Shown here piece after piece: positions 45,137 to 63,830 of a stretch of 64,000 nt of DNA. How positions within the stretch are numbered: position 1 is the stretch's first letter; the number at the start of each line of letters is the position of its first letter. A model generated the notes under the pieces. It was not told the DNA's origin and did no database searches. It saw only the letters and a list, made by a program, of their open reading frames with translations. The stretch spans positions 1 to 64,000 of the forward strand of contig JAGVKQ010000020.1 of assembly GCA_020050435.1 (NCBI GenBank), written 5' to 3'. Source of the DNA: Candidatus Caenarcanales bacterium (GTDB taxonomy: Bacteria > Cyanobacteriota > Vampirovibrionia > 2-02-FULL-35-15). The translations under genes were made by a program, and so were the position numbers.

Positions 45137-46261
45137 CTACGACAATATCTCTTTCACATTTTTCACTACATACTGCTGAATGTCTTTCGTTATTTCAGGA
45201 TAAATAGGCAATGAAAGAATTTCTTTAGATATCTTTTCTGTTACAGGAAGATCATAGTTTTGATTTAAATGACTGAAGGCTTTTTGCTGATGAATAGGAA
45301 TAGGATAGTAAATAATGCTTTCAATATTTCTTTCTTTCAACTTCTCACAAAGTAAATTTCTATTTTTTGTTTTAATTGTGTATTGATGGAAAATATGTTT
45401 TCTATCAGGCTTTATCACAGGAGTTGTGACCTGCTCAAATCCTTCAAATAGCTCATTATAGTAAAGAGCTGCTTCTAAACGCTTTTCATTCCACTGGTTT
45501 AAATATTTCAACTGTACACTTAATATAGCAGCCTGGATCTCATCTAACCGACTATTTAAACCAATAACATCATGGACATAACGCACTGAAGAACCATGAA
45601 CTCTAAGCTGCCTGAGTTTAGCAGCCAGCTCATCATTATTAGTTATAACTGCTCCACCATCACCAAAAGCACCAAGGTTTTTAGTAGGGAAAAAACTTAG
45701 CGTACCAATGTCTCCAAAAGTACCTACACATTTATTATTTAACTTAGCTCCAATTGCCTGAGCGCAATCTTCCACAATAAATAAATTATGCTTTTTAGCA
45801 ATTTCAACTATTTTATCTATATTGCATGGCTGTCCATAAATATGAACAGGAATTATAGCTTTTGTTTTTTTATTTATTAAAGCCTCAATTTTTTCTATAT
45901 CAATATTAAAATCATCTTCTTTAATATCTACAAAAACCGGCGTGGCACCTACTAAAGCAATAGATTCACTAGTTGCAAAAAAACTATGCGAAGGAGTTAT
46001 TACTTCATCACCCTGCTTAATTCCTAATGACATCAGAGATAAAGTAATTGCATCGGTACCATTGGCACATGAAACAACGTGCTTTACTCCCAAATAAGCA
46101 GAAAGTTCTCCCTCAAAAGATTTTACATTTGGTCCAAGAACAAAATAACCAGAAGACAATACCCTCATTACAGCTTCATCAATTTCATTTTTTATAGCAT
46201 TATAGTGAGCAGCTAAATCTACTATTTGTACTTTAGCCATGTTTTCTGATTTGATGTTCAT
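45137..46261 (-). CDS. DegT/DnrJ/EryC1-family sugar aminotransferase
   Basis: PLP aminotransferase of 374 residues acting on nucleotide-linked keto sugars. VSCANGTDAITLSLMSLGI binds PLP phosphate, VEDCAQAIGAK holds the PLP Asp, and SFFPTKNLGAFGDGGA (about residue 190) the lysine. RLDEIQAAILSVQLKYL is family-typical. In this context it would aminate the 4-keto sugar made by the convergent dehydratase, giving a 4-amino-4,6-dideoxy sugar for surface glycans. Start ATG 46261, with a second ATG at 46240. Confidence 0.9.
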   Translation of the reverse strand: MNIKSENMAKVQIVDLAAHYNAIKNEIDEAVMRVLSSGYFVLGPNVKSFEGELSAYLGVKHVVSCANGTDAITLSLMSLGIKQGDEVITPSHSFFATSESIALVGATPVFVDIKEDDFNIDIEKIEALINKKTKAIIPVHIYGQPCNIDKIVEIAKKHNLFIVEDCAQAIGAKLNNKCVGTFGDIGTLSFFPTKNLGAFGDGGAVITNNDELAAKLRQLRVHGSSVRYVHDVIGLNSRLDEIQAAILSVQLKYLNQWNEKRLEAALYYNELFEGFEQVTTPVIKPDRKHIFHQYTIKTKNRNLLCEKLKERNIESIIYYPIPIHQQKAFSHLNQNYDLPVTEKISKEILSLPIYPEITKDIQQYVVKNVKEILS

Positions 46262-46372: not shown

Positions 46373-47314
46373 TTACTTTGTATTTGCTACTGTTAAAACC
46401 TGAGGGACGATATCCACTACAGGTCCATTTACTATAGCAGTATGTCCTGTTTGTGGAAATGCAATAGACAATTTAGATATGCCAGCTTTTCTAGCGATTA
46501 AATCCAAATCAACAGTGAAATCCTTTGGTGCATTAGCTGATATAACCATTTCTACACCTGCTCCATCTTCATTAATGGCACCACCATTAAATGACTTAAT
46601 AGAAACCCCTTCAGAAACTATTGTATGACCAAAAGTTTCATCAATATCAACAACTGCCTTATTATAAATAACAGGGATAAATATAGTCTCCTCTTTTTGA
46701 GCTGGTCTTTGAATATTTAAAGTAATTTTCTTTTGGCTTAAAGACAATTTCTTTTTAGTACCTATAACGCTTTCAGTAACTTCTATGTCGGCTGGTGCAT
46801 CAACAGAGACCTTAACATCTTGATTTATAATCAAGCCTTTAGATGGCAATGAAGGACCTTCAGAAACCATTGTTATAGAAATAGAGGTTTGACCTTCTCC
46901 TATTGGTTTCAAAATAGCTTTTATGGATAAAGACTCTGGTAGTCCAGTATCATCTAGCTTAATTAAACCAATTCCAGTCCCTACCTTATCTTTTGAATTA
47001 GAAGCCACTGCAAGAATGTTTTGTGCAGATAAACCTTCTAAAGCAACCTTATCAAAATCTAATATCATGGTGTCAATTTTTATAGGGATAAAGAGTGTTT
47101 GCTGACCTTTAGGAATATCTTTTACAGTGACATCTAAAGTATATTGAATTTCAACTTTTTGAGCAGGAGCGACTTCTTTTATATTGTCTTGTACTTTTTG
47201 AATATCTACCTGTGCTTTTGGTTCTACTGGAATTTTCCCTTTTGCTGACGCTATATTATTTACTCCAGAAACCATTAAAGCTAATCCAGTTAATGTAATT
47301 AAAGATTTTTTCAT
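46373..47314 (-). CDS. Secreted protein with two beta-sandwich-like repeats
   Basis: 313 residues from ATG 47314 (GGGAAGG lies 8 nt upstream; the frame extends to 47350 without a ribosome site). The signal peptide ends NIASA-KG. Two similar modules follow, about 40-175 and 190-300, each beginning with strands like TLFIPIKIDTMILDFDK or TIFIPVIYNKAVVDID and later GIGLI/GAGVEM and a Leu/Ile-rich strand pair. They resemble the first module of the next secreted protein (IPVTVDTSIVTIGS, GIGIVSTTGDLP), so the two are related. A surface or periplasmic binding role is plausible. I cannot name a known domain family. Confidence 0.72.
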   Translation of the reverse strand: MKKSLITLTGLALMVSGVNNIASAKGKIPVEPKAQVDIQKVQDNIKEVAPAQKVEIQYTLDVTVKDIPKGQQTLFIPIKIDTMILDFDKVALEGLSAQNILAVASNSKDKVGTGIGLIKLDDTGLPESLSIKAILKPIGEGQTSISITMVSEGPSLPSKGLIINQDVKVSVDAPADIEVTESVIGTKKKLSLSQKKITLNIQRPAQKEETIFIPVIYNKAVVDIDETFGHTIVSEGVSIKSFNGGAINEDGAGVEMVISANAPKDFTVDLDLIARKAGISKLSIAFPQTGHTAIVNGPVVDIVPQVLTVANTK

Positions 47315-47403
47315 TGAAACACCTTCCCTTTTGTTTTTAAATTCTAGCAAATGATTGTTTTTAGGCTTTAGTATTTCTCACAAAATATTTTTAGGAATTA
47401 TAA

Positions 47404-47458: not shown

Positions 47459-48859
47459 TTAAGGAACTAATTGGTTAGAACAAGTACCAGTAACTTTGAT
47501 CTTCTTACCTTTTGTACCGCCTGTAGTAGATACATTTACGTAACTACCTTTAGGAATACAATTTGCTGCTGCATACTTAGCCTTAATCAATTTTTTCTTA
47601 ACTGTTTGTGATACTTGTGTTTTATCAGTAGGGATAATGGTAACAGTTGTTTCATCTGTTGCAAAACCCATACCTGTTATAACAAGCTTAGAGTTGTTTT
47701 TGTTGTTTCTAACGTGTGCAGTTTTAGCTTTTGGTGTTACGTCGCCAGTTCCTGCGTTAACTGTAATGTTACCGAGGTTTACTGTGGTATCTGTACCACC
47801 TGACATAACTACTAAAGTTAGTGCAAGTGATCCACTGTCTGGTAAATCAACGATTGAAAGACCGACAGTACCATTGTTTCTAAATTCTACGTTTGAACCA
47901 TTCAATGTAGCTGTTGTACCATTAGCTGCTCCGACAGCGCTAAATGCAACTGCAGCACTACCAGGTCCAGTTACTGAACTTGGTGATACTAATGTGAATG
48001 TACCTACTCCACTGGATGATGATCCACTGCCATTAGTAACTGATGTAGGATCTACTACTATTGCTACGTTAGCTGTGATATCTGTTCCACCTGAAGCTTC
48101 TACTTTTGCTACGCCAAATGATGTTGTTCCACCCATTGTACCTGGTAGTAACATTCCAGTGATTGTTACGACACCATCTGTTGATGTACCGCTCCATACT
48201 GCTGAAATAACATTTGTTGTTGCATTAGCATCTGTAAGTAATTGTGAAACTCCTGTACCTGTTACAGTAATGCCTGCTGTATTAAGTGTTGCTATTGATG
48301 AGTCACCAAATGCAACTGTTACGTTAACTGCTGATGTTTGCTTAATTGCTTCACCAGTAATCATAATTGTGAAAGTATCAGGTGTAAGTGCACCACCACC
48401 AGTTGATGAACTAGTTGAGCTAGTTGTACTGCTGGATGAAGCTACTGTTACTGAACTTGTATCAGATACTGCTGTAGCACCTGCTATAGCTGTTCCGCCT
48501 ATCATATCTGCAACTGCTCCAAGTGTAACTGTAGATGTACCTACTGCTACTCCTGTTAATCCTGCTGTTACTGTAAATGATGCTGGAAGATCTCCAGTTG
48601 TACTAACTATACCAATTCCTTCAGACATACTTCCTACTACTACTAAAGTACCGCTTACGCTTGATGAAGCAGATCCTATAGTAACTATTGAAGTATCTAC
48701 TGTAACTGGAATTGCAAGTGATGTTGTTCCTGTTGGAACCCCACTAACTGTAATTACAGCTTGAGTTGGTGTTGCTACTTGTGCTTTAGCTGGAATATTA
48801 AAGAACATCCCTACTACTAAGAGCATAGCTAACACACATAATGTTGCTTTCTTGACCAT
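47459..48859 (-). CDS. Secreted Ser/Thr/Val-rich surface protein
   Basis: 466 residues from ATG 48859, which follows GGAGG. Signal peptide (KKATLCVLAMLLVVGMFF, cut at AKA-Q). The mature part is very rich in Ser, Thr, Gly and Val and seems modular. Module 1 (about 30-125) resembles those of the next gene product, a Ser-rich linker (SSSTTSSTSSSTGGG) follows, then two further beta-type modules, and a C-terminal domain with two Cys and a basic stretch (KTAHVRNNKNNSK). It looks like a surface or S-layer-associated protein and a likely glycosylation substrate. Open frames on the opposite strand are shadows of its low complexity. Confidence 0.8.
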   Translation of the reverse strand: MVKKATLCVLAMLLVVGMFFNIPAKAQVATPTQAVITVSGVPTGTTSLAIPVTVDTSIVTIGSASSSVSGTLVVVGSMSEGIGIVSTTGDLPASFTVTAGLTGVAVGTSTVTLGAVADMIGGTAIAGATAVSDTSSVTVASSSSTTSSTSSSTGGGALTPDTFTIMITGEAIKQTSAVNVTVAFGDSSIATLNTAGITVTGTGVSQLLTDANATTNVISAVWSGTSTDGVVTITGMLLPGTMGGTTSFGVAKVEASGGTDITANVAIVVDPTSVTNGSGSSSSGVGTFTLVSPSSVTGPGSAAVAFSAVGAANGTTATLNGSNVEFRNNGTVGLSIVDLPDSGSLALTLVVMSGGTDTTVNLGNITVNAGTGDVTPKAKTAHVRNNKNNSKLVITGMGFATDETTVTIIPTDKTQVSQTVKKKLIKAKYAAANCIPKGSYVNVSTTGGTKGKKIKVTGTCSNQLVP

Positions 48860-48961
48860 TTTATTTTCCTCCACCCTTTCCTTTGATTAAATCTTTAAAA
48901 ACTTTTATTAGTACTAAATTTTGTTGGTAAATTTACCTCTATTTGAAAATGCTTTTTTATG

Positions 48962-49006: not shown

Positions 49007-52000
49007 TTAGCTAAGTCCAAGAGCTGATTTAGCCGCTAAGATTACTCCATCAAGTGTTGCGCCACCTGCTGAAATAACTGCTGATAAACCACCTTTTGAA
49101 GTGATGTAAGCCAATACTTCTGTAATTGTAGCTACGCCATCAGAACCAGCAATTTCGTTAAATACGTCCTGTGCTGTTTGACCTGAGCTACCACCACAAA
49201 GTGCTGTCTTGGTTACTGCTGTAGTAGATGTTCCACTAAGTTTTTCAGTAACTGTTACTGTCACGCTTGTATTTGGACTTGCACAATCGCCTCTTAGTTT
49301 TGCAGTAAATGAACCATCAGATGATGCAAATACTGTTACTGAGTCGTATGTGGAAGATGAACCAGATGTAACTGTTACTTGAGAACCACCATCAACTGAT
49401 CCTGCAGCACCTGTTACGGTAACTGTATTATCTGTTGTTGTTGATCCACTGCTTGATGCTGCTACAGCTGTTGCTGCAACGGTAATCTTAGCTGCATCTG
49501 CATTTTTTGCTGATGTTACTAATGTAGCGAATGGATTAATTTGTGGTCCACCTAGTGTTGTTAATCTAGATGTTACTTGAGGAAGTGCCAATGCACCAGT
49601 ACCTACTTGTACAGCAGCTTGATTAAGTTGTGTACCAGCTTTTGTTGTTGTTATAGCACCTGGTTTATAAGGTGTAAACAAGGTTGGTGTTGAAGCACTG
49701 TTACCTGCTACTGCACCTGGTGTATTTACTGTAGCTCCAGCATCTTGTGAGAAGAACTGAACTGAAGCTGCAAGGTCTGCTGCTCCTGTAGATGCAGTTG
49801 CAAGAATTAAGTTATTAACTGTAATTGTAGATGCAACAGTAGATGGATCTCCAGAAGCGCCCTTCTTGATTCCAATTACCAATGTACCTAAAGGTGCATT
49901 AGCATCTAATGTTGCAGTTGCAATATATGGAGCTCCATCAATTTGAAGTGTTGTATCAGAGAATGTTACATCACTTGAACCTGGTGCAGTAGCGAATACT
50001 GATCCAGCTGATGGTGTTACCCATATTTGGCCTCTTGTAATTACAGTTGAACTGTTTGAAGTTGGGTCAATGTTACGAGCTGAAACTCTACCACCGATTG
50101 CAAAGCTTCTTTCATTAAGCTCTACGATTTGGAATGGATGTGCAGTAGTTGTGCTACCACCAGCAAGTCTTACTGTAGCGCCAAGGTTGCTGTTTGTTGA
50201 AGTTTCACCCTTTGTTGATGTTGCTGTATGAGGAGCAACTGAGAAATCTGCAGCTTTTGTAGCAGTACCGAAACTTACTGTTCCTAAGTTTTCAGTAATG
50301 GTTGGGCTTGCAGTTTTGTTTTGTGCTCTTACAAGACCGGTAAGGTTTCCTGATACTGTAGATGGACAGAAAATATCCTGTGCATCTAACTTAACAAGGA
50401 TTCCATCAGTTGTAGTTGAGTCAAACTCTGTAGCACTACTTGATCCTGTTGCTTTTGTGAATAAGAAGTGGATTAATGCAGGGTCTGAACCGCTAGCTGG
50501 AACGATGGTAGTTGAGTCAGTAATATTAGCTGGTGATGTACCAACTGCTACTGTTGCATCTCCACCGATAGGACTAACAGAAATACCTGCTGTAGATGTA
50601 ATAGTTACCATAGTTACATCATTACCACCCAAAGGAGCAGTTGTAGCTGATGTAGCAGTTGTATTATTATCATCTCTATCATCGATTACATCACATCCTG
50701 TTGGAAGTTGTACTTCGATAACTGTACCTGTAGTTCCGCCGCCTACTTTAGCTGCTAGTTCGCTGAAACCAGTTGATGTTAATTCTTTAATTAACACGCC
50801 TCTGCCTTCACCTTGTACTACTGGTGTTCCGTCAATTACTGTAGATCCAGAGATACTGCTAGCAGTTCCACCTACAAATAATGCTGGAGGAGTAGCAATA
50901 CTACCACTGGTACATGCTGCTGTTACTTGTGAATCAAGTGTTGCACCTGATACTGAAGACAAGTTTAATGCTGCTGTACTACCACTAGAACAGCTAATAC
51001 CAAGTTGTCCTGTTTCTGAAAGTGCTACACCAGAAGCTGCTGCTAATGTACTAGTAGCTCCACCTGATGATGTAATAGCTCCAAGAACCTTAGCTAAGCT
51101 AAGTTCTGTACTACCTGTTAAGTTATTACCTGTTACTGTAGCTATAAGCTCAATATCAGATGTAAATGCATTAGTTACATTTGTAATAGAGAACTTAGGA
51201 ACTACTGCAAGTACGTCTTTAGTAGCATCAAATCCGTTTTGAATAGGAATGATTGTTACTGACATTCCTGAACATGATGCATATAAAAGAGCATTGTTGG
51301 ATTGGAAAGTATCTGCTGCTGCGCCTTTAGCTCCACCTTTAAATGGTGCTCCAAAAGCTGTAGAGAATGCAGTACCAGCTATGTTTGTAAGTGCTTGTGT
51401 ATAGAAATTACCAAGGCTGCTTACATTGAACTTAGTACCTGATGCTGAAGCTTTAACTAATTGATTTGGTGCTGCAGTTGTAGTACCAAAAGGTAGTGCT
51501 GTAGCTGAGCTGTTTGCAATAGCAAACCAACCTGCTACTGGTGCTGTACCATTACAATTAATTCTTAAGTCTAAGAATGTATTAGTACCTGGATCTGCAT
51601 TTACTGCAATACCTGCTAAATCACGAACTCCTGTACCACTAACTGATGCAAGGTTTGTTTCTTGAACTACTGCTGTATCACCTCTAACTGAAGCAATACC
51701 CCATAAGGTACCACCTAAAAAGTCAGAAATAGTAGTAGCATTGCCTGAGTCTAAAGAAGCTGCTCTAAGAGCTCCTAAGAAACCATGTCTTGAGCTTTGT
51801 GCAACGTTAAAACCAGCTGCTGTACCGCCTGCTGCTGCACTACCAATAATAATATCTACTGCATCTAATGTTACTGTTGCAGAAGAAGAATTTTTTGGTC
51901 CAAATGTAACTGTAATAGGAGAAGTGTTTGTATTACCAAAGTTGTTTAAGTCAAGACCTGAAGTAGCTGGTGTAAAGTTTGTACCTGTACCAGTAATATC

Positions 52001-53065
52001 TACTAAAAGCTCAGCTGTTGAAATAACTTGGTCTCTTGTACTAGAACCTGTACCAGCAAGCCCTCTGATAACTACTGGCTCAAGATCGAGTGCTCCAGTT
52101 GATGCAGTAGTAGCTTGGTCAAATACGTTAATTGTAGTATTTGCAGCAATTTGGCTAATAGCTAGTAAGTTTGGTGAAGCTGCTGTTTTGTCATATAAGT
52201 CATTTGTACCGTCATCAGCATCTACTACGGCTTCTAATTGACCGGCAACACTAGTTAAAGTACAAAGATTTAATGTACCGCTTAAACCAGGAATTGCTGC
52301 TGCAACTGCTGGGCTTCCACTTCCACCTGATACTCCAATTCCTGATGGAGGAGTAGAATCAAATGTAGCTTGGAGTGTTCCTGAAAGTGTAGCATCGCTT
52401 GTAGGAGGAATAATAATTCCTAATCCGTTAATAGAAATAGTTACGGAGTTTGTTCCAGTAGCTGTTTTTGGATATGTATCGCTAGCATCTTTTGCTAGAG
52501 CTACGATTGCTCTACCAACACCAGCTGTACCTTGAGTTACAACACCTACTGATATTGCAACGTTACTATCAGCAGTTCCATCATTTCCTACTGCATTTAC
52601 AATTGATGCATTAGCGGTTGCTAAAAGATTTGATGAGCCTGCAGCTGTGTTTTGAAAACCAGGAACGATTACAAAGTTTGAACCTGTAGGAGGGACAATG
52701 GTAAATACGTTTCCAATAACGTCTCCAGCACCTGATATTGCTCCAACTTTTGTTGAGTCAGTAGGATCACCTGTTGCTCTGGCTGCTGCTGTATTTAAAG
52801 TAGTAGTACCAGCTGCATCATCACCAGGAACAATTTCTGCTGCTGTTAATGAGATTTGAATAGTTCCAATTGAATAAACAGTAGGTAATGCACCATTTAA
52901 TGTACTACCTGTATGTTGAAAACAGATTCCTGCTGTAGGGGAGGAAACTGTTACTGCTGCTTTAGCACTAGGGCCGATAAGCGCAAGAATATTTGAGAGC
53001 GTAAATGCGAAAACAAACATGAGCGCTATTTGACGCTTAGTTTTTCCCGTTGAAATCAATTTCAT
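49007..53065 (-). CDS. Very large secreted Ser/Thr/Gly/Ala-rich S-layer-like protein
   Basis: 1352 residues with an N-terminal signal peptide (KRQIALMFVFAFTLSNILAL, cut near AKA-A). The mature chain is dominated by Ala, Thr, Ser, Gly and Val with Asp/Asn, beta-rich in look and almost free of Lys-Arg runs. About ten scattered Cys are present. The last 90 residues include a Thr/Ser-rich beta part (TVTSGSSSTYDSVTVFASSD) and a helical end (GVATITEVLAYITSKGGLSA). There is no SLH domain or known anchoring motif. AAGGAG 8 nt before the ATG, a strong terminator and a 470-bp upstream gap suit high expression. S-layer is an inference from size and composition. Its DNA is visibly richer in G+C than the neighbours. 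Confidence 0.85.
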   Translation of the reverse strand: MKLISTGKTKRQIALMFVFAFTLSNILALIGPSAKAAVTVSSPTAGICFQHTGSTLNGALPTVYSIGTIQISLTAAEIVPGDDAAGTTTLNTAAARATGDPTDSTKVGAISGAGDVIGNVFTIVPPTGSNFVIVPGFQNTAAGSSNLLATANASIVNAVGNDGTADSNVAISVGVVTQGTAGVGRAIVALAKDASDTYPKTATGTNSVTISINGLGIIIPPTSDATLSGTLQATFDSTPPSGIGVSGGSGSPAVAAAIPGLSGTLNLCTLTSVAGQLEAVVDADDGTNDLYDKTAASPNLLAISQIAANTTINVFDQATTASTGALDLEPVVIRGLAGTGSSTRDQVISTAELLVDITGTGTNFTPATSGLDLNNFGNTNTSPITVTFGPKNSSSATVTLDAVDIIIGSAAAGGTAAGFNVAQSSRHGFLGALRAASLDSGNATTISDFLGGTLWGIASVRGDTAVVQETNLASVSGTGVRDLAGIAVNADPGTNTFLDLRINCNGTAPVAGWFAIANSSATALPFGTTTAAPNQLVKASASGTKFNVSSLGNFYTQALTNIAGTAFSTAFGAPFKGGAKGAAADTFQSNNALLYASCSGMSVTIIPIQNGFDATKDVLAVVPKFSITNVTNAFTSDIELIATVTGNNLTGSTELSLAKVLGAITSSGGATSTLAAASGVALSETGQLGISCSSGSTAALNLSSVSGATLDSQVTAACTSGSIATPPALFVGGTASSISGSTVIDGTPVVQGEGRGVLIKELTSTGFSELAAKVGGGTTGTVIEVQLPTGCDVIDDRDDNNTTATSATTAPLGGNDVTMVTITSTAGISVSPIGGDATVAVGTSPANITDSTTIVPASGSDPALIHFLFTKATGSSSATEFDSTTTDGILVKLDAQDIFCPSTVSGNLTGLVRAQNKTASPTITENLGTVSFGTATKAADFSVAPHTATSTKGETSTNSNLGATVRLAGGSTTTAHPFQIVELNERSFAIGGRVSARNIDPTSNSSTVITRGQIWVTPSAGSVFATAPGSSDVTFSDTTLQIDGAPYIATATLDANAPLGTLVIGIKKGASGDPSTVASTITVNNLILATASTGAADLAASVQFFSQDAGATVNTPGAVAGNSASTPTLFTPYKPGAITTTKAGTQLNQAAVQVGTGALALPQVTSRLTTLGGPQINPFATLVTSAKNADAAKITVAATAVAASSSGSTTTDNTVTVTGAAGSVDGGSQVTVTSGSSSTYDSVTVFASSDGSFTAKLRGDCASPNTSVTVTVTEKLSGTSTTAVTKTALCGGSSGQTAQDVFNEIAGSDGVATITEVLAYITSKGGLSAVISAGGATLDGVILAAKSALGLS

Positions 53066-53535
53066 TAATTTCTACTCCTTCTTAATTATTTTTAGTTAAT
53101 GTTACTTAACCTTTTATTTAACTTTTAGTGTTAAGGCCGAAAATACTTTTTAACTCTTTTAAAAAAAAGTCAAAAACATTAATGGACTTAACACGCCAAT
53201 TTAAAGAATACACGACTTTAATTGAACTTCAACATATTTATAAAGTTCCTGTAAACAACAATTTAGCCCTCTAATACAAGGAATCAAACAGTAATACTCT
53301 TTTATTTGCTGTTAAAATCATTTATAAATAACTTTTCAAAATATTCCTAGGTTTATAAAGTTCTTACACTGGATAATTTTTAGGAGACTTCCTAGATAAG
53401 AAAACCTACAGTACTAATATAAAGAAGCATTTTTATAATTTTTTAATATATCGAAAACAATGAGTAATACTGAAAGTAGTAACGATTATCTATATTAACA
53501 AGCAAATATTTTCAATATATAAAGAAAATAATAAG
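53066..53535. other. 470-bp non-coding region upstream of the surface-protein gene
   Basis: Very AT-rich divergent gap between the S-layer-like gene and the glycosyltransferase operon. A TTGACT (53173-53168 on the minus strand) is a possible -35, but no -10 at standard spacing is clear. No RNA gene or open frame is seen. It probably holds promoters for both directions and a long leader for the surface-protein mRNA. Confidence 0.5.
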
Positions 53536-55593
53536 GTGATTCAACAAAAAAGAAAATTTTTCTACTTTGCTTTTTTTACTTCATTAGTAATATTTCTTTT
53601 TTTCTTCCCTACAATTTTCTTTAAAGTTAAAGCATATGATGAATTAATGACCTTTAAAGAGACATATCTGCCAGTATGTCTATCATTTTCTGAAATGTTT
53701 GAGCTTATTTCTGTTTTAGGTCTAAGACATCATTTTGAAGCTACAAATACCATTTATTCTAGCCTGGTCTCTATCAGGTGTAATCCTGTAGGCAATTTTT
53801 TACTTTTATTAGTTCAAGCATTATTTAAAAAGAATCCTATTAATTACCATCTTTATAGCCTTTTCTTACACCTGATAAACTCATACATTCTTTTTTATTT
53901 ATTAACTAAAATAAGAAAACTATTCAATAACAATAAAGGAATAGGCAACATTGAATATGGAGCTTGTTCTTTATTAGTATTAATCTGGGCATTACACCCA
54001 GTAAACTTAGAATCAGTTTTATTACTTTCAAATGCAAATATAGTTTTAAGCTATACATTAACCCTATTAGCATTAGTAGCACTTCTTAATAAAAGCAATC
54101 CCCTATTAACTTTTGTTCTTTATATAACAGCTCTATTTACTGCTGAGTTTCACTTTTTTATTCCTTTACTGTTGATTTTATATTTAGTAATAGCTTCTAA
54201 TTACTTTAATAAAGAAATTTCTTTTAAAGGCATTCTTTTAAAAACCAGCCCTTTCTTACTGGCTTCATTAATATTTATAATTTCTTTTCTTCTTTCACCA
54301 ACTAAGTTAAATCTAAGCAATCAATCAAATATTCAGATAATTCTAGAAAGAATATTCTGGCTCTCCCCACAAATACTTTTTCACTTTACTCAGCTTTTCT
54401 TATTTCCTGTCAATTTATCCATAGATCAGACAAATCTGGTTAGGCTAGGAAAAACATTATTTGACCCATACGTAGTTTTTTGTTTTTTTGCTGTTTTCTT
54501 TTTCGTATTGCTTTCTATACTTTCAATACTAAGCTCAAAAAAAAGGTTACCATTGTTCTTTTTAACATTTACATTGTTTTTACTAACTTTAATACCTTTT
54601 TCACAAATACTAGCTCCTATTTATAATTTAGCTAGTGAGCGATATCTTTATTTCCCTTCTTTTATGTTTATTTTCGGACTGGGGCATGTACTTTTTTATC
54701 TTGATTCAAAAAACAGCACTATTTTAAGAACTAAAATCATTTACTTACTATCTATCATTTTATTAATTTATGGAGGTAGATCATATCTTAGAACACTGGA
54801 CTGGAAAGACAGTGAGTCTCTATATAGAGCAGCTATAAGATCTACAAATAACCCACTTCACCAAGCCGTAAGATATAAAGGATTATCCCCACAAGAATCT
54901 GTTTTATCTAGATTCCCAGAAAGGGAAGTATCAGTAGAAATCCAGAGAATTGCAGAAAATAAACTGGAAGAAGCAATTGTTTTTTACAAATCAGAAGTCC
55001 AAAAATATCAAGATAAAACACCTTTAATTTTAAAAGCTTATGGATTAGATCCAGAAACCCTTCTTGTAAAATCTGGATATGTGCTATCACAAACAAAATT
55101 TACTCTTAATAAAGATGATTACAAATTAGCATTAGAAACTATACAGCCTTATCTATATGATCTGTCAAAGCTGGACTCAGCTGCATTAACTTTTTATGCC
55201 TCCATTTTATATTTCAATAATCAAATAGATCAGTCTGAATATATCTTAAGAAAAGCATTGGAATTACATCCTTACTCCACAAAAATAATATATCCACTAT
55301 GTGATCTTATACAAATAAAATATGGAGATTTAAATCAAATAGAAGAATTAACGCTCAAAGCGTTTAAATATTTTCCCTATGATTCATTTACACTTCTAGT
55401 ACTAACTAAGGTTTACTCACTAAAGGGTGATTTAGAGAAGTTTGCACATTATTCTTATATATTCGGACTCAGAAACCATTCTATAGAAGATTTAACTAAT
55501 GCATATAATGCATACATAAAATTAAATGAACCAGAAAAAGCAAATAAAGTTAAAGAAAAGATTTTATTTTTAAGACGAGTCTTACATCAATGA
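53536..55593 (+). CDS. TMTC-like GT-C glycosyltransferase with C-terminal TPR-like repeats, paralogue 1
   Basis: 685 residues, GTG start. About 1-425 is a polytopic membrane domain; 430-685 is helical and TPR-like. After the first TM helix comes an acidic YDE (34-36), the position of the catalytic Asp in GT-C enzymes. Family blocks shared with the next three proteins are YHLYSLFLHLINSYIL, WALHPVNLESVLLLSN, ERIFWLSPQILFHF, LSIDQTNLVRLGKTLFDPY, LASERYLYFPS and RTLDWKDSESL. Such blocks occur in TMTC/PMT-type O-mannosyltransferases that use dolichyl- or undecaprenyl-phosphate sugars. First of four genes coupled by overlaps; substrate likely the neighbouring Ser/Thr-rich proteins. Confidence 0.82.
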   Translation: MIQQKRKFFYFAFFTSLVIFLFFFPTIFFKVKAYDELMTFKETYLPVCLSFSEMFELISVLGLRHHFEATNTIYSSLVSIRCNPVGNFLLLLVQALFKKNPINYHLYSLFLHLINSYILFYLLTKIRKLFNNNKGIGNIEYGACSLLVLIWALHPVNLESVLLLSNANIVLSYTLTLLALVALLNKSNPLLTFVLYITALFTAEFHFFIPLLLILYLVIASNYFNKEISFKGILLKTSPFLLASLIFIISFLLSPTKLNLSNQSNIQIILERIFWLSPQILFHFTQLFLFPVNLSIDQTNLVRLGKTLFDPYVVFCFFAVFFFVLLSILSILSSKKRLPLFFLTFTLFLLTLIPFSQILAPIYNLASERYLYFPSFMFIFGLGHVLFYLDSKNSTILRTKIIYLLSIILLIYGGRSYLRTLDWKDSESLYRAAIRSTNNPLHQAVRYKGLSPQESVLSRFPEREVSVEIQRIAENKLEEAIVFYKSEVQKYQDKTPLILKAYGLDPETLLVKSGYVLSQTKFTLNKDDYKLALETIQPYLYDLSKLDSAALTFYASILYFNNQIDQSEYILRKALELHPYSTKIIYPLCDLIQIKYGDLNQIEELTLKAFKYFPYDSFTLLVLTKVYSLKGDLEKFAHYSYIFGLRNHSIEDLTNAYNAYIKLNEPEKANKVKEKILFLRRVLHQ

Positions 55594-57731
55594 ATGAATT
55601 TAAAAAAAAATTGACGGCGATATTTTTCCCTCTACTAGCAGTAATCTGTGTCTTTCTATTTTACTCTCATACCTTAAACTACTCATGGAAGTTTTTTGAT
55701 GAGGAGATAATTTACAGTGAAACAATATTTCCCATACCAAAAGATTTTTCTAACTACATAGAGATTGTTAAAAATTTAGGACTAAAAAATCATTTCGAAG
55801 CTAGCAACACATTTTATTCAAATATTGCAAATGTCAGAGGGACACCTTTAGACACCATTTTCCTTTTGACAATTTTTTTACTTTTCAAAAAAAGTGCATT
55901 CTGCTATCATTTATTTTCACTTGTTTTGCATTCGATCAATACCTTTATTTTAGGATTAAGTATTAGTAAGGTTCTTTCTTTCAATAGGCGAGGTTCAGCA
56001 GCCTCGCTTTCTGGTGGGTTCCTAGCATGTATACTCTCACTTATGTGGGCATTACATCCTGGGAATGTAGAGTCGATTTTATTCGCTACAAATATCGGAG
56101 CATTAGTTACTTACTTTTTTTGTTCTTTGTATTTATTACTTTATATAAAACTGCTTGATATTGAAAATAAAACTATAAAAGATTTTAACCTCTTTCAAAA
56201 AATATTGATTTTTACTTTTTACTTATTTCCACTTTTTTTAAATGAATATTCAGTCACACTTCCTATAATGATATTTTTGCTTATTTTTTTATATTCAAGA
56301 TCATATGTAAATCTGTCTTTAATAGAAAGCATAAAAACATCTTTCAACAGAACATTACCCTTAATATTGGCTTTATTGGTTTTTATACTTTATTTCATAA
56401 TAAAACTACTCAGCTCAAATGTATCGAGCAGCACGACAGATATATCTTTAATATTTGAAAGAGTGTTTTGGCTTTCACCTCAAATATTTTTTCATTTTAT
56501 TAAATTGATTCTTTATCCTCAATTCCTATCGATAGATCAAACAAGCCTGGTTAATCTAGGGCAAACAATGTTTTCCCCACAAGTGATCTTTTGTTTTTTA
56601 TCAATGTATGCACCACTCCTATTATCTCTGTTTATATTGTTCAAATCGACCAAGAAAAAAATTGTTTATTTTACATCTCTAACTTTCTTATTGTTTTTTA
56701 TTAGCTTATTACCTTTTTTACATATACTTTCCCCCATATACAATCTAGCCAGTGAAAGATATCTTTATTTGCCTACATATGCTCTGATATTAGGACTTTC
56801 TCATTTTTTAAATTTTTCAAACAAAAAATCATATTTGATTATTCTTTCAGCATCACTAATTTCATTAGGAATATTTTCTTATAGAACTTTTACAAGATCA
56901 TTGGAGTGGAAAGACTCTAGAACACTACTAGAATCTGCCATTCAAACTGCACCAAATAAATTATTCAAAGGACTTAGAACACTAATGATCGCTCATTCAA
57001 TTAAAGAAAGTGCTAGTCCAAACTTGATAGAAATAGAAAGAATAAGAAAAGATGCTCTTAAAATAATAGAAAGTTCTTTAATTGAATTAAACAATACAAC
57101 AAAATCAAGCTATAGAATCCCTGGAATATTAAAATTTTATGGTCTGGACAATAAAACTCTTGCAGCTAAAAATGCTTTCTTACTGGCTATGTGCAGATAT
57201 GAGCTAGGGCATAAAAGAATAGAAGTAAAAGAAACATTTTCACCATATATAAGAGACTTAAAAGTAATAGACAGTCAAATACTTAGATTTTATTATCCAA
57301 TATTATTTTTCACAAATGATATAGACACTGCAGAAAAAATTCTAATTTCATCATTGAATTCAAAGAGATATAACAGTAATCTTTTTTTGGCTCTAGCAGA
57401 TATATCAGAATACAAATACAGAAATATTAAAGCAGCTGAGAACTATCTTTTAAAATCATTTGAATTGTTTCCATATGATCCGACCACTTTATTTGGGTTA
57501 AAAAGGATATACAGAGTAAATAATGATTATAATAAATTCGCTCATTATTCTTATTTATATGAACTTAGAACTCATGACCCCATAAGCTTACAGGAAGCAG
57601 TCACAGGATATCTAGTTTTAAAAGATAAGAAAATGTCAAGAAAGCTTTTAGATAGACTAAATAAAGAATACTCGAGTAATGAAAGCACAGACTATTTAAA
57701 TCAGCTTTATAAAAAGGTTTTCAATGATTAA
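55590..57731 (+). CDS. TMTC-like GT-C glycosyltransferase with TPR-like repeats, paralogue 2
   Basis: 713 residues; ATG overlaps the previous stop (ATGA). Same layout: FDEE at 36-39, FEASNTFYSNIANVRGTPLD, FSLVLHSINTFILG, MWALHPGNVESILFATNIGA, FLNEYSVTLPIMIF, ERVFWLSPQIFFHFIKL, LASERYLYLPT and a helical C-terminal third. Residues 132-139 (GSAASLSG) are encoded by a short inverted repeat (GCGAGG...CCTCGC) where paralogue 3 has other sequence. It is closest to paralogue 3, so the tandem array probably grew by duplication. Confidence 0.82.
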   Translation: MNEFKKKLTAIFFPLLAVICVFLFYSHTLNYSWKFFDEEIIYSETIFPIPKDFSNYIEIVKNLGLKNHFEASNTFYSNIANVRGTPLDTIFLLTIFLLFKKSAFCYHLFSLVLHSINTFILGLSISKVLSFNRRGSAASLSGGFLACILSLMWALHPGNVESILFATNIGALVTYFFCSLYLLLYIKLLDIENKTIKDFNLFQKILIFTFYLFPLFLNEYSVTLPIMIFLLIFLYSRSYVNLSLIESIKTSFNRTLPLILALLVFILYFIIKLLSSNVSSSTTDISLIFERVFWLSPQIFFHFIKLILYPQFLSIDQTSLVNLGQTMFSPQVIFCFLSMYAPLLLSLFILFKSTKKKIVYFTSLTFLLFFISLLPFLHILSPIYNLASERYLYLPTYALILGLSHFLNFSNKKSYLIILSASLISLGIFSYRTFTRSLEWKDSRTLLESAIQTAPNKLFKGLRTLMIAHSIKESASPNLIEIERIRKDALKIIESSLIELNNTTKSSYRIPGILKFYGLDNKTLAAKNAFLLAMCRYELGHKRIEVKETFSPYIRDLKVIDSQILRFYYPILFFTNDIDTAEKILISSLNSKRYNSNLFLALADISEYKYRNIKAAENYLLKSFELFPYDPTTLFGLKRIYRVNNDYNKFAHYSYLYELRTHDPISLQEAVTGYLVLKDKKMSRKLLDRLNKEYSSNESTDYLNQLYKKVFND
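55987..56008. repeat. Short inverted repeat inside paralogue 2
   Basis: GCGAGG at 55988-55993 pairs with CCTCGC at 56002-56007 around TTCAGCAG. It lies in a loop between predicted TM helices and is G+C-rich relative to its surroundings, as expected for an inserted element. Confidence 0.55.
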
Positions 57732-59661
57732 AAAACACTTAGAAAAACTTGCATATATATTACCAACATTAATCACGTTGATTTTTTATCTTCATACATT
57801 GGGATATTCATGGAAGCATTTTGATGAACAAATAATTTATGGTGAGTCTGTTTTACCAGTGCCCACTTCATTTTTAGAGTATATAGAAATAATTAAAAAC
57901 TTTGGATTGATTAATCACTTTGAAGCTAGCAATGCCTTTTATTCTAGTATTTCCAATGTAAGAGGTACGCCACTAGATACATTGTTTTGTTTGACTGTTT
58001 TTCTATGCCTGGGGAAACATGTTTTCCTATACAGGTCATTCTCACTAATCATACACATAATAAATACTTTCATTTTAGGGGTTATTTTAAATAAGATTAT
58101 TTCACTAAAGAATAAGGATATACCACCTCTCACTAGGATATCTTCCGTAGCTCTACTAACATCCATCTGGTCACTTCATCCAGTAAATGTAGAATCAGTT
58201 TTATTTGCTACGAATATAGGGGCACTGATAACTTACCTTTTTTGTTTAATTTTTTTACTGATTTACATAAATAGAATAGATGTTAAAAATAACACTTTCA
58301 AACCATTAAAAGTCAGAGACTTTGTAATCATTTTTATTCTTTATTTGTTTCCACTATTTCTAAATGAATACTCAGTAACATTTCCTTTTATAATTTTTTT
58401 CATACTGTTTTCATTCAGTGCGTTTCATTTTAAAAAGAACTTAAAAAATTCTATAAAAGAATCACTCATAGACTCATCACCACTTTTTATAGGTTTAGCA
58501 ATCTTTTTTATTCATTTTTTCACTGATGTAACTAGAATAAATTTAATCAATTCTACTAGCATAAACATACAATTATCCCTTGAAAGAATATTATGGTTTA
58601 CACCACATATATTTTCCCATTTTTTAAAATTGTTGTTTTACCCAGAGAGTCTTAGCATTGATCAATCTGGAAATGTAATTTTCGGCAATTTTTTAAATGA
58701 TCCATATTCTATATTTTGCATTTTACTATTTTTAGCATTTGCTCTTCTTTCACTTAGAAGCATTACCATTGCACCTTTCTTTATATCAATCATTCCTTTT
58801 CTTCATGTTTTGTCTCCAGCATATTGTTTAGCCAGCGAAAGATATCTCTATCTTCCCAGTCTTTTATTAATCTTCGGAATAGCAAACACCATAAGCTTTT
58901 CACACAATAAAATAAAAAACGGTTTCATTTTAATATTTTTATTAATAATTCTAGCTTTACTGGGAAATAGAGCTTACATAAGAACCTTAGACTGGCGTGA
59001 CAGCGTAACTCTTTTCACATCAGCATATAAAGAAAATAATAATCCTCTTTTAAAAGCCCTCAGGCTTCAATTCACAGGTAGCATTCTAACCGCTTCTCAA
59101 TATTCATATGATGTTCAAATACAAGGATTAGATTACATAGAGCATTCAAAATTAGTTCTAAGTGACTATTATTTAAGTTTAAAAGATGACAAGAAAGCAC
59201 CAGAAATAATTAAACTTTATGGCTTAGACAATAAAACACAAATGGTAAAAACAGCTTATTTAATTGCATTTGAAAAGTTTGGGATGGAAAGAGATATACA
59301 GGGAGCATATGAGATTCTTAAAACAAACTTAGATAAAACTTTTGTATATGATCCTAGTGTTATTTCATTCTATTCTTTTTTACTAAAAGATCTTAAAAAG
59401 TATGATGAAGCAGAAAAGGTATTAAAACTGTCTTTAGAAAAGAATCTGAGCCCAGCAAGTCTAGTACAACTATCAGAAGTTTACATTTTAAGAAAAGAAT
59501 ATAAAACAGCTGAGGAATGTTTATTAAAATCATTTAAGCACTTCCCATATGATATAAAAACACTCTATACACTAAAAGAGTTTTATAATCTAAAAAAAGA
59601 TAAAGAAAAATATGATCTTTATTCAAGGCTCTTAAGCTTAAGAACACATGGACAGCAATGA
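57724..59661 (+). CDS. TMTC-like GT-C glycosyltransferase with TPR-like repeats, paralogue 3
   Basis: 645 residues; starts 8 bp before the previous stop. FDE at 33-35, FEASNAFYSSISNVRGTPLD, WSLHPVNVESVLFATNIGA, FLNEYSVTFPFIIF, ERILWFTPHIFSHFLKL, LASERYLYLPS and RTLDWRDSVTL are clear. The C-terminal 230 residues are helical repeats (EKVLKLSLEKNLSPASLVQL). It has no palindrome insertion, so it serves as the reference for insertions in paralogues 2 and 4. Confidence 0.82.
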   Translation: MIKKHLEKLAYILPTLITLIFYLHTLGYSWKHFDEQIIYGESVLPVPTSFLEYIEIIKNFGLINHFEASNAFYSSISNVRGTPLDTLFCLTVFLCLGKHVFLYRSFSLIIHIINTFILGVILNKIISLKNKDIPPLTRISSVALLTSIWSLHPVNVESVLFATNIGALITYLFCLIFLLIYINRIDVKNNTFKPLKVRDFVIIFILYLFPLFLNEYSVTFPFIIFFILFSFSAFHFKKNLKNSIKESLIDSSPLFIGLAIFFIHFFTDVTRINLINSTSINIQLSLERILWFTPHIFSHFLKLLFYPESLSIDQSGNVIFGNFLNDPYSIFCILLFLAFALLSLRSITIAPFFISIIPFLHVLSPAYCLASERYLYLPSLLLIFGIANTISFSHNKIKNGFILIFLLIILALLGNRAYIRTLDWRDSVTLFTSAYKENNNPLLKALRLQFTGSILTASQYSYDVQIQGLDYIEHSKLVLSDYYLSLKDDKKAPEIIKLYGLDNKTQMVKTAYLIAFEKFGMERDIQGAYEILKTNLDKTFVYDPSVISFYSFLLKDLKKYDEAEKVLKLSLEKNLSPASLVQLSEVYILRKEYKTAEECLLKSFKHFPYDIKTLYTLKEFYNLKKDKEKYDLYSRLLSLRTHGQQ

Positions 59662-61652
59662 AATTTAAATTAAAAACAATATTAGATTTAATCATTTGTT
59701 TAGCAATAACATCTTTAATTTTTATACCGACATTAGTACGTCCATGGCTCTTATATGATGAAAACTTACTTTTTAATGGCACGTATTTTCCCACACCCAA
59801 GAACATTGGTCAGATGTTTGAAATAATTAGTCAGCTAGGATTAAACTTTAATATAGTTTCATCAAATGCCATTTACAGCTCAAATCAAGTAATTAGAACT
59901 GCTCCACTGGGTCAGATATTCGGCATGATAATTAGTTTTTTCTTTAAGAAAGACCCTGTTTTATTTCATACTTTCAATTTTTCACTTCACCTAATTAATA
60001 CTTGTCTTGTATTTTTTATACTTAATACTTTAATCAATAAAAAAAATACTATCTATCAAAGAATCCTAATAATATCTCTTACATCGATATGGTCTACTCA
60101 CCCAGTAATGATAGAGCCTATTTTACTATCTATAAACTGTGGAGCTACTTTTACCTATATTTTCTTCTTCGGGATGTTACTGGAATTTATCCTAAATAAA
60201 GATAAAGATCCATCAATTAAAAAATTTATACTAATACCCATTTTATTCATGACTGCAATGCTGACCAATGAATACATAGTGACTCTCCCGTTAATAATTT
60301 TTATTTTTGCATTTTATTTTAACTATCAAAGAGGCATTGTGAAAGATATGGAGTCCCGAGACGTTGCACGCAACGTCTCTACAATAATTAAATCAGCGAA
60401 ACAGTCAGCACCATATTTTATCGGATTATTTTTATATGTAATATATTACTTTGGACTTTCCAGCTTCTCGACAAAGACCTTTAACACATCATTAAGCCTG
60501 CTTTTAGAAAGGGTTTTATGGCTTTCCCCACAAATATTTTTTCATGAGTTTTTATTAGTTTTTTATCCTAAAATATTATCCATTGACCAATCTATCTTTG
60601 TAAAGCTAGGAAAAACCATTTTTGATCCATATTCTGTTTTTTGCTTTTTATTTTTAACATCATTTATTTCATTTCCACTGATCTCATTTATATTCTTTAA
60701 AAGATTTAAAACTATTTTTTTAACGTGTCTCTGCTTTTTCATTTCCCTACTACCTTTTTTACATATAATCGTGCCTTCATATTCGCTAGCATGTGAAAGA
60801 TATCTTTATACACCACTTTTATTTATGGTGATGGGAGTGGGGTTGGTGTTAAAGGATTTGCCAGGTAAACACAAATCACCTCAGAGAGACGTTGTATACA
60901 AAGTCTCTACCGTGGGTATTCTTTCAATAATATTAATTTTATGCATGTATAGGTCACATATAAGAACATTGGACTGGCAAGATACATACACCTTCATAAA
61001 TGTCACTTATGAAACCAGCAATAATTCATTTTTTAAAGCTGTGAGATTAGGAATGCTGGGTAAAGCCATTTCAGTATTTAATCCAGAAGAAAAGGAAAAA
61101 ATAAATAAATATTTCTATGACACATTGGATTTACTAGTAGAAGCAAGAACTGAAACTGAAAGAAATAAATTTTTATACCAAGACAAACTGCCTGGAATAG
61201 TTAAGGCTTATGGATTAGACTATGAGAGTTTAATCAGAAAAATTACTTTTCTTGAAGTAGCATCTAGGTGTATTGAATTAAAAGAAAGTCATAAGGTTGG
61301 AATAGAGCTATTAAAACCTTATATAGAAGAAAACACTAAAGTAGAACCCAGCATTGCTGAGCTTTATGCTTATCTTTTAATGCAAGATAAAAATTTAAAA
61401 GAAGCAAAAGAGGTTTTACTAAGATCAGAAAGAGCTTTTCCTAACGATATTTTAGTCTTAAATAAACTATTCGATATATCTATTCTTGAAAATAACTATT
61501 CCAAAGCAGAAGAGTATTTAAAAAGAGAGTTGAAATTATATTCTCACGATTCAAGCATATTATTAAAAGCATTGAGGTTTTATTCATTTATGAAAAACAC
61601 TGAATTAGCAAATAGATATTATTATTTGTACAAGCTAAGGACGGGAAACTAA
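59658..61652 (+). CDS. TMTC-like GT-C glycosyltransferase with TPR-like repeats, paralogue 4
   Basis: 664 residues, ATG overlapping the previous stop. It is the most divergent copy: YDE at 33-35, SSNAIYSSNQVIRTAPLG instead of the EASN..NVRGTPLD block, WSTHPVMIEPILLSINCGA, NEYIVTLPLIIF, ERVLWLSPQIFFHE and LACERYLYTPL. Two palindromes are inserted in frame at about 233-241 (ESRDVARNVST) and 409-417 (QRDVVYKVSTV), both in loops next to TM segments. Convergent with the last large gene, overlapping its end by 18 bp. Confidence 0.82.
   Translation: MKFKLKTILDLIICLAITSLIFIPTLVRPWLLYDENLLFNGTYFPTPKNIGQMFEIISQLGLNFNIVSSNAIYSSNQVIRTAPLGQIFGMIISFFFKKDPVLFHTFNFSLHLINTCLVFFILNTLINKKNTIYQRILIISLTSIWSTHPVMIEPILLSINCGATFTYIFFFGMLLEFILNKDKDPSIKKFILIPILFMTAMLTNEYIVTLPLIIFIFAFYFNYQRGIVKDMESRDVARNVSTIIKSAKQSAPYFIGLFLYVIYYFGLSSFSTKTFNTSLSLLLERVLWLSPQIFFHEFLLVFYPKILSIDQSIFVKLGKTIFDPYSVFCFLFLTSFISFPLISFIFFKRFKTIFLTCLCFFISLLPFLHIIVPSYSLACERYLYTPLLFMVMGVGLVLKDLPGKHKSPQRDVVYKVSTVGILSIILILCMYRSHIRTLDWQDTYTFINVTYETSNNSFFKAVRLGMLGKAISVFNPEEKEKINKYFYDTLDLLVEARTETERNKFLYQDKLPGIVKAYGLDYESLIRKITFLEVASRCIELKESHKVGIELLKPYIEENTKVEPSIAELYAYLLMQDKNLKEAKEVLLRSERAFPNDILVLNKLFDISILENNYSKAEEYLKRELKLYSHDSSILLKALRFYSFMKNTELANRYYYLYKLRTGN
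60358..60379. repeat. Short palindrome in paralogue 4, first copy
   Basis: GAGACGTTGC-AC-GCAACGTCTC followed by TAC, encoding part of RDVARNVST in frame. It closely fits the GTAGAGACGTTGC-type palindrome known in other genomes. Confidence 0.88.
60885..60908. repeat. Short palindrome in paralogue 4, second copy
   Basis: AGAGAC-GTTGTATACAAA-GTCTCT then AC, encoding part of RDVVYKVST in frame. Second copy of the same type in one gene, about 530 bp from the first. Confidence 0.82.
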
Positions 61653-63830
61653 TTTCAACCCATTCTTATCAGCATAAAAATCTATGAGTTCTTTAGACAC
61701 AGCATTAGTAAAGAATTTATAGTCTTTAAATCCCGAATCTTTTAATAAGACATTTCTTATATAATCATTTGCTTCATTTTCAGTCTTAAATAAATACAAA
61801 GAATTATTTAACGATATAGGCTCATCTTCTATATATTTTGTTAAAGTCCAATAATAACTTTGATTAGATTCTGCATTTTCAAAATTATTAAATTCATATA
61901 AAGTAGATTTTTTATAATTAAAATCATCATTAACCTCTAAAGCCTTTTTTATATAACCTTGACTTATTAACTGTTCAAACTTTAAATGATTAATATACTT
62001 ATCCGTTTCCGGATCTAGATATAGCCATTTAATTTTCAACTCTTTCACAAGAGAGAGATCAAGTGTATCTAAGACTGTTCTAAAAGTTCTCCCCCTTGAA
62101 ATGCTTCCTGCTCTTGGCATGTAGCATGGAACACCAACAAGATCAAAAGGCAATGGATTTAGTGAAATACCATAGCCATTCTTATCTTTTAAATACTTAG
62201 CCACTTTCTCATCCATCGGATTAACAGTAATAGACTCTTTCATTATATTAGTACTAAATTTTATATCTGAAGAAAAGGTTTTAAAATCTTTGTCAATAGA
62301 ATATTTCTCTATCAAAGAATTAATATGATCAATGTACTTATAATTTAAATATATTGAATTAGTAAACATCCCTGAAAGAATAAGTTTTAAGATTGATGGA
62401 ATTAGAAAAATAGTAATTATCCATTTAAGTTTATACTTACTATTCATAAAATAAAGAATAAAAACCAAACTTAGAAACTCTAATCCTGGATGAAGTATTC
62501 TCATAGAATCTGGCGGCGAACTCTTTATTAAAATTAAAAATGGGAAGATAAATGATACAAGAAAAAATGCTGTTAGAAATAATGAGTAATTAGGTTTCTT
62601 TTTTACAAACCATATTAAAGTAAAAACAAGAAATGAAAAGAAAAGACCAATTTCAGAAAAAGTTTGCCAGGAAAAGATATTAATTTCTCTAAAATCTTTC
62701 AAGTCTCCGAATCTTCCAAAAGCCAGAAATTTAGGAAAGTGAGAGTTGAAAGTAATATCTAAAAAGCCAGGAATATAGGAAAATTCTGAACTTAAAAGTT
62801 TAAAGCTAATACTGTTAAAAACTATAATAAAAGCAAAAATTAAGTAGGGAATTAATAGTTTAATGTTTTTATATGAAATCAAAGAACAAAGCAAAAGAGT
62901 TAAACATAAAACATAGACAATGTATTCTGCATTTTGAAACAAAGCAAAGCCAATAACAGCAATTGAAAATAGGAGTTTCTTATCAAGTTCTTTACTATTA
63001 AAAGATAAAAAAAGAAAATACATTATCAGTAAAAAAAGTGGGATTCCTAATGTTAAAGAAGGAAGAAATATTCCTGAGCTGCCCAGATCATTAAAGATAC
63101 TTCCGTGGAGCCCTATAGAGCAAATAGTCTTAAATAAATTAGAGCCCGAACTGGTAATCATGGAATCAAAGAATAAAAGATTAGTAGAAAAGTAAAAGAA
63201 TAGTGCTGCTAATAATGCAGGGGACTTATTAAAGTCAAATTGATTAGATAGAAAACGTGCAATTGAATAAGCAGATAAAAATGTGATTACAGAAGAAAAT
63301 ATCGCTACTAGCTTAAAAACATTAATAATACTAGTCTTTGACAAAGATGAAAGACTGGCAGAGAAAAGGTCAAAAGCATAATGATATGGAATAATCAATT
63401 CAGGCCAATTAGAATATCCAAAGGGGAAATTATCTGACCTTAAAATATAATTTGCTGCTGATAAGTGAAACTTAAAGTCTAAAAGAATATTATTTTCAAC
63501 ACTAAGATGTGTAAAAAATCCTATGAGAAAAACCACTAAAGCTAAACAAATCCCCTCATATAAAGTGGTGGCTAGTTGTAATTCTTTAAGTGAACCCCTA
63601 TCTTTAAAATAAAGAATTAAAGAGCTAATAAATAAAACAAGTAGAGAAATAACTGAAGATTTAAAAACTCCTAAAAAAGGACACAAACAGTAAAGTAAAA
63701 CTGTATAAAAGGCTATTCCAAGTACAAATGAAAATGGTAAAAGATAAATTGCATTTCGTATTCTCAAAAAGTGATAATTATAAATTAAACCAAATAGGAA
63801 GAATAAAAAGAAAATGAGTATAATTAGCAT
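61635..63830 (-). CDS. Large polytopic membrane protein, GT-C-like
   Basis: 731 residues: about the first 500 form many TM helices, the last 230 a soluble domain. An acidic/His segment in the first large loop (DFKFHLSAANYILRSDNFPF, then WPELIIPYHYAFDLF) is of the kind seen at GT-C active sites. I know no close family; a glycosyl- or arabinosyl-transferase-like enzyme using a lipid-linked sugar is plausible. The start has TTGACA, a 17-bp spacer and AATAAT ending 7 nt before ATG 63830, so the mRNA may be leaderless. Confidence 0.7.
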   Translation of the reverse strand: MLIILIFFLFFLFGLIYNYHFLRIRNAIYLLPFSFVLGIAFYTVLLYCLCPFLGVFKSSVISLLVLFISSLILYFKDRGSLKELQLATTLYEGICLALVVFLIGFFTHLSVENNILLDFKFHLSAANYILRSDNFPFGYSNWPELIIPYHYAFDLFSASLSSLSKTSIINVFKLVAIFSSVITFLSAYSIARFLSNQFDFNKSPALLAALFFYFSTNLLFFDSMITSSGSNLFKTICSIGLHGSIFNDLGSSGIFLPSLTLGIPLFLLIMYFLFLSFNSKELDKKLLFSIAVIGFALFQNAEYIVYVLCLTLLLCSLISYKNIKLLIPYLIFAFIIVFNSISFKLLSSEFSYIPGFLDITFNSHFPKFLAFGRFGDLKDFREINIFSWQTFSEIGLFFSFLVFTLIWFVKKKPNYSLFLTAFFLVSFIFPFLILIKSSPPDSMRILHPGLEFLSLVFILYFMNSKYKLKWIITIFLIPSILKLILSGMFTNSIYLNYKYIDHINSLIEKYSIDKDFKTFSSDIKFSTNIMKESITVNPMDEKVAKYLKDKNGYGISLNPLPFDLVGVPCYMPRAGSISRGRTFRTVLDTLDLSLVKELKIKWLYLDPETDKYINHLKFEQLISQGYIKKALEVNDDFNYKKSTLYEFNNFENAESNQSYYWTLTKYIEDEPISLNNSLYLFKTENEANDYIRNVLLKDSGFKDYKFFTNAVSKELIDFYADKNGLKLVSRP

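Follow-up and report, generated by a model that had tools for sequence, protein, structure and literature searches.

Four consecutive genes in the 64,000-nucleotide stretch of Candidatus Caenarcanales bacterium DNA analysed here (the window; contig JAGVKQ010000020.1) encode paralogous membrane proteins with a predicted GT-C fold and a C-terminal TPR-like domain, and this array points to a dedicated machine for the sugar decoration of the cell surface. We consider it probable that the proteins are TMTC-like GT-C glycosyltransferases that O-glycosylate exported Ser/Thr-rich surface proteins from polyprenyl-phosphate sugars. All four genes lie on the plus strand and belong to class B (53536..55593, 685 aa, GTG start), class C (55590..57731, 713 aa), position D (57724..59661, 645 aa) and class E (59658..61652, 664 aa), the letters referring to the tree of relatives described below. 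Successive open reading frames (ORFs) overlap by 4, 8 and 4 nt, and two of these overlaps, including that between the class B and class C genes, are of the ATGA type. In a sequence comparison the membrane domains of the other window copies are 37-48% identical to that of the third, against which the whole proteins score 464, 310 and 274 bits. The four ORFs are real, full-length and true paralogues, in agreement with an earlier note on this DNA that had described four tandem copies with overlapping ends. The same genome encodes a fifth family member on another contig (G000:C11:72882-74780) and, at G000:C5:97854-98900, one that is far more divergent. Among named relatives the nearest belong to metagenome-assembled genomes (MAGs) called Candidatus Melainabacteria, one of these MAGs being from groundwater, and a tblastn search of plasmids yielded no match.

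The fold assignment is based on structure prediction. An AlphaFold model of the position D protein, computed with 16 relatives, reached a pLDDT of 86.5 and a pTM of 0.88. As a Foldseek search with this full-length model was dominated by TPR proteins, with PglB still at the top, the membrane domain was also modelled by itself (pLDDT 81.8, pTM 0.87). For this domain ranks 1-15 in the PDB are all PglB or STT3, with probabilities of 0.93-1.00. Note that the corresponding TM-scores to the query are modest (0.32-0.44), and we therefore keep the claim at the GT-C fold and do not extend it to a specific family. Lower GT-C matches are ArnT (probability 0.35) and PMT1-PMT2 (6p25, 0.47), while transporters match at a probability of 0.25 or less. 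As judged from these models the array proteins are of the GT-C fold class, as the earlier note had surmised, and not transporters. As to the profile searches that it had proposed as a check, Pfam and NCBIfam scans gave no GT-C model match for any of the four window copies; sequence searches of the PDB returned only TPR proteins or nothing. Eleven membrane helices were counted by hand from the helix list of the model, with the TPR domain on the side of loop 1, the outer side. The C-terminus forms helical hairpins in the AlphaFold model, and Pfam TPR matches are significant in relatives (best 7e-12) and sub-threshold in the window copies, in line with the TPR-like domain claimed before.

Residue conservation was counted over 64 relatives. 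The acidic pair in outer loop 1 is retained in 64/64 (D34) and 60/64 (E35) of these, E215 in loop 3 and R288 in 64/64 each, as are R373, Y374 and Y376, whereas H152 is found in 61/64 and E157 and W424 in 63/64 each. The motif blocks quoted in the earlier note are thus invariant or nearly so. With the seven motifs of TMTC1-4 as a yardstick (PMC7801869), five (M1, M4, M5, M6 and M7) are recognisable in the same loops, mostly in reduced form. The DD of M1 in loop 1 is DE here and DD in relatives from another order; of the KE of M4 in loop 3 the Glu is retained as E215, with a variable residue at the Lys position; the DW of M5 in loop 4 is DQ, or YQ in classes A1 and most A2; of the PxxP of M6 in TM9 a single Pro is left; and the ERxxY of M7 in loop 5 is retained as ERYxY. 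The loop-1 motif M2, SHKSYRP, has shrunk to Arg80. At the loop-4 position Asp (D313) is the usual residue in classes B to G, whereas every A1 protein and most of the A2 proteins have Tyr, so that two kinds of active site are maintained side by side. The window array has Asp-type copies only.

The order-level group under study comprises 11 genomes, all of one family, and the GT-C family is present in 10 of them; in the eleventh the surface protein gene is cut at a contig end. In a tree built from 64 proteins, classes A1, A2, B, E and G have a support of 100 and class F of 85, and classes C and D separate cleanly except for the window's D copy, which is placed with C. The gene order A1-A2-B-C-D-E-F is found in every assembled array; some genomes have additional A1, B, C or E genes, and the maximum is 12 contiguous genes, in G003. 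An apparent open frame of 25102 codons in G008 proved to be a stretch of N and was rejected as a gene. Of the 59 adjacent gene pairs, 50 fall between an overlap of 40 nt and a gap of 30 nt, and 27 overlap. The seven classes are ancient and arrayed in fixed order. In its array the window genome has only B-C-D-E, and it lacks A1, A2, F and G; the four copies that the earlier note had counted, correctly for the window, represent a shortened form of an ordered array that in its larger versions has 7 to 12 genes. At L007:1492-5669 the identity of two neighbouring class B genes, B1 and B2, is 63-65% over about 450 nt, 92-98% over about 1 kb and 57-70% thereafter, a mosaic that suggests gene conversion or recent partial duplication. 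Gene conversion may also explain why the position D copy of the window groups with class C.

Profile-profile comparison connects the array family to two sets of GT-C proteins: one from another order, encoded in tandem (A3; probability 100, E 6e-40), and one from a third group, encoded singly or in tandem (A4; 99.5, E 3e-22). Of the nine A4 members, two match Pfam PMT_2 (best 2e-5). The negative control, a second, DUF2298-like membrane family of the locus, remained unmatched at a probability of 0.5%, which excludes these neighbours as members of the array family. The phylum's genomes sampled outside the class gave only two weak matches. Two further groups of the class also have related GT-C proteins in tandem (L063, L064 and L066), and these arrays lie beside different small secreted proteins. 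In G006 the array is interrupted between its D and E copies by two related genes on the opposite strand (L046:4935-6673), at least one of them alpha/beta-hydrolase-like, and a gene for a secreted protein with 22% Ser/Thr is inserted between E and F in the G010 array (L044:9145-10539). No account of the arrays emerged from the literature searches.

Directly upstream, on the minus strand, lies the gene for a 1352-aa secreted protein (49007..53065), probably the principal protein of the cell surface and the candidate S-layer protein and acceptor. It contains 26% Ser+Thr and only 4% Lys+Arg, and its N-terminus, read by eye, resembles a signal peptide. The earlier note had named this Ser/Thr-rich neighbour; to this we add that its gene is divergent from the array and not part of the array operon. 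In alignment the window protein shares 54-60% identity with orthologues of about 1355 aa that contain about 25% Ser/Thr, and the array is divergent from the surface protein gene in 9/9 assembled junctions (G000, the window genome, G001, G002, G003, G005, G006, G007, G008 and G010). Its recurrence in nine genomes excludes chance, and the synteny with a Ser/Thr-rich secreted neighbour that had been proposed as a check is kept at every one of these junctions. Among 194 genomes sampled in the class the surface protein is confined to the 11 of the group, with no match in the other 183. A second candidate acceptor, a secreted 471-aa protein with 29% Ser/Thr, is encoded next to it on the minus strand (47459..48874) and has same-place orthologues in G001, G003, G008 and G010; in relatives, a protein of about 470 aa with 25-30% Ser/Thr comes after the surface protein gene. 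Effective codon numbers are lower for these two genes than for any other tested in the window, and their products contain 4-5% Lys+Arg, which would fit abundant exported proteins; for an S-layer identity these features are suggestive only. The S-layer-like character put forward in the earlier note found no backing in Pfam and PDB searches with the surface protein, which gave no domain or structure match. An S-layer-like protein has been noted before for other melainabacteria (PMC3787301). In most genomes of the group a paralogue of about 700 aa of the surface protein's C-terminal half is encoded elsewhere (e.g. G003:C6:362233-364218), with no GT-C genes nearby among the matches listed.

The 470-bp divergent intergenic region (53066..53535) was aligned at the DNA level over seven orthologous regions and is conserved among these relatives, with promoter-like boxes and an inverted repeat. 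On the minus strand a promoter-like pair consists of a -35 box TTGAAG (~53227-53232) and, after 16 nt, a -10 box TATTCT (~53205-53210), leaving a leader of about 140 nt. The inverted repeat, TTAGGA..TCCTAR, is located near 53379-53394 (TTAGGAGAAATCCTAA).

Further genes around the array bear on donor supply and on the surroundings of the system. On the far side of the secreted proteins, which include a third, probable one of 325 aa (46373..47350, minus strand; same-place orthologues in G001, G003 and G010), are a nucleotide-sugar dehydratase of the Polysacc_synt_2 family (43208..45115, plus strand; Pfam 1.5e-103) and a DegT/DnrJ/EryC1 sugar aminotransferase (45137..46261, minus strand; Pfam 1.3e-130), both of which might supply donors. 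Following the array on the minus strand is a 731-aa membrane protein of the second family (61635..63830), relatives of which match DUF2298 (best 3e-11); one to three copies of this family come after the arrays of most relatives (e.g. L037:3843-6182, 17705-19001). Likewise kept after the arrays, at L037:6899-9059 and in relatives, are paired genes for a radical SAM/SPASM protein and for an LPG_synthase_TM protein of flippase-like type, often followed by GT-C class G. A conserved 363-aa neighbour considered as GT2 donor synthase was rejected, as it is a radical SAM/SPASM protein. The window genome has 15 GT2 matches, with one protein nearest to sll0501 (GtrB-type, E 9e-58) and another nearest to dolichol-monophosphate-mannose synthase (1e-10), and further ones that score below the cut-off against the AglJ and dolichyl-phosphate hexose transferase models. 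The presence of such synthase-type proteins makes polyprenyl-phosphate sugar donors plausible and leaves the sugar open. An RmlD-like reductase fused to a GT2 domain is also found in this genome (L100:568-2322).

From these data we infer catalysis, donor, acceptor, S-layer identity and division of labour as follows. The GT2 synthases of the genome would load a sugar onto a polyprenyl carrier on the cytoplasmic side, after which it would be flipped. D34-E35 in loop 1 would form the catalytic acidic pair, the outer loops also holding the invariant E215 (loop 3) and D313 (loop 4), while the ERYxY block of loop 5 would bind the phosphate of the polyprenyl-phosphate sugar. A TPR domain situated in the periplasm would present the acceptor, and the enzymes would move the flipped sugar to Ser/Thr residues of exported proteins, chiefly the divergently encoded surface protein. 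The paralogues, derived from the seven-class ancient array, would most likely serve different acceptor segments, comparable to the proposed recruitment of acceptors by mammalian TMTC1-4 through their TPR domains (PMC11292533). A bolder version, which we regard as doubtful, is a combinatorial or site-specific machine for surface glycosylation: an ordered operon of seven TMTC-like classes with up to twelve genes, in which the TPR domain of each class would recognise its own segment or fold within a single surface-layer protein, with two active-site types, gene conversion co-evolving neighbouring copies and a donor other than mannose.

The chief alternative is an assembly line, in which the classes act one after another, each attaching a single sugar from a polyprenyl-phosphate donor, to yield a lipid-linked or polymeric surface glycan, like ALG or mycobacterial GT-C enzymes, the Ser/Thr-rich protein being a mere neighbour or the carrier of the finished glycan. 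Seven distinct ancient classes kept in a single order in nearly every genome would suit such a pathway, as would the two active-site types with loop-4 Asp or Tyr and neighbours for nucleotide-sugar synthesis and for methyl and carbamoyl transfer, the LPG_synthase_TM protein and the DUF2298-related family. The TPR domain on every copy, however, suits protein acceptors, the closest tie is to the surface protein gene rather than to polysaccharide genes, and the window genome manages without A1, A2, F and G, which is hard to reconcile with a strict series; we hold this alternative to be rather unlikely. That whole glycans are handed over to protein en bloc by a polyprenyl-diphosphate carrier, in the manner of STT3 and PglB, is a distinctly improbable reading: these enzymes are the top fold matches, but this preference may merely mirror the number of such structures in the PDB, no WWDxG-type motif is among the invariant residues, and the ERYxY block and the motif layout agree with TMTC. 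That the proteins are no glycosyltransferases at all, but transporters or sensor-like membrane proteins with TPR domains, would account for the missing Pfam and NCBIfam matches of the window copies; it is most improbable in view of the fold, the invariant acidic outer-loop residues that fit GT-C and the low scores of transporters.

O-glycosylation of the surface proteins by TMTC-like enzymes thus remains our preferred explanation. It draws on a GT-C fold with no credible transporter match, on the invariant D34 and E215, the TMTC motif positions and the profile links to A3 and A4, the latter with PMT_2 matches, and on the fixed class order, the surface-gene junctions, the conserved divergent regulatory region and the GT2 synthase types. 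Several points weigh against it. The RxD motif of TMTC (M3, loop 2) is absent, its positions being neither Arg nor Asp, with a near-invariant Asn164 one place before. Pfam TMTC_DUF1736 (PF08409) is unmatched in the order and the phylum, in a search whose controls were likewise unmatched and whose sensitivity is unproven. For both reasons the proteins are TMTC-like and not proven TMTC enzymes, and the TMTC resemblance asserted in the earlier note holds for topology and motif positions and not beyond. As M2 and M3 contact mannose in published TMTC models (PMC7801869), and M2 is reduced and M3 gone here, mannose should not be assumed as the sugar, and the O-mannosylation proposed earlier is not upheld. 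The nearest structural neighbours are oligosaccharyltransferases rather than PMT or TMTC, at the modest TM-scores given above; activity, sugar and acceptor are inferred; and the nucleotide-sugar synthesis neighbours are compatible with polysaccharide assembly as well. No Ser/Thr-rich neighbour accompanies the lone class B copy (G000:C11, L036), and no large one the arrays of another order (L063/L064), so that the association expected in the earlier note is not general in the wider family. Overall, that interpretation is partly supported.

If true, the system would be, as far as the searched literature shows, a first candidate for the machinery that glycosylates the surface in this uncultured non-photosynthetic branch beside the cyanobacteria. 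It would provide, outside animals, a bacterial case where numerous TMTC-like enzymes have both a physical and an evolutionary link to a single likely acceptor. The reason for the existence of TMTC enzymes in paralogous copies, and the choice of the acceptor by their TPR domains, could then be addressed with one protein and one array.

Among known systems TMTC1-4 (CAZy GT105), the animal O-mannosyltransferases of cadherins, share with the array 11 membrane helices, an outer TPR domain, the loop-1 catalytic acid, the loop-3 Glu, the loop-4 Asp, the loop-5 ERxxY and the presence of several paralogues per genome. The array differs in having DE for DD, one Arg for SHKSYRP, no RxD and DQ for DW, and in being bacterial, tandem and ordered, situated beside a surface protein gene and without a DUF1736 match. 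With PMT/POMT (GT39) and bacterial PMT it has the GT-C fold in common and is linked to them through relatives with PMT_2 matches; the structural match is weak (6p25), and the MIR domain is missing, with TPR in its place. The oligosaccharyltransferases STT3, PglB and AglB have the same fold and are the best Foldseek matches, but the C-terminal domain of the array proteins is TPR and their motif layout that of TMTC, the monophosphate-donor type. In archaea, S-layer proteins are acceptors of STT3/AglB-type oligosaccharyltransferases. A glycosylated surface protein, predicted in our case, and a dedicated gene cluster are also features of the bacterial S-layer and general O-glycosylation systems. 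To our knowledge these use a single transferase or ligase, in contrast to the 4 to 12 paralogous GT-C enzymes in conserved order that we observe here.

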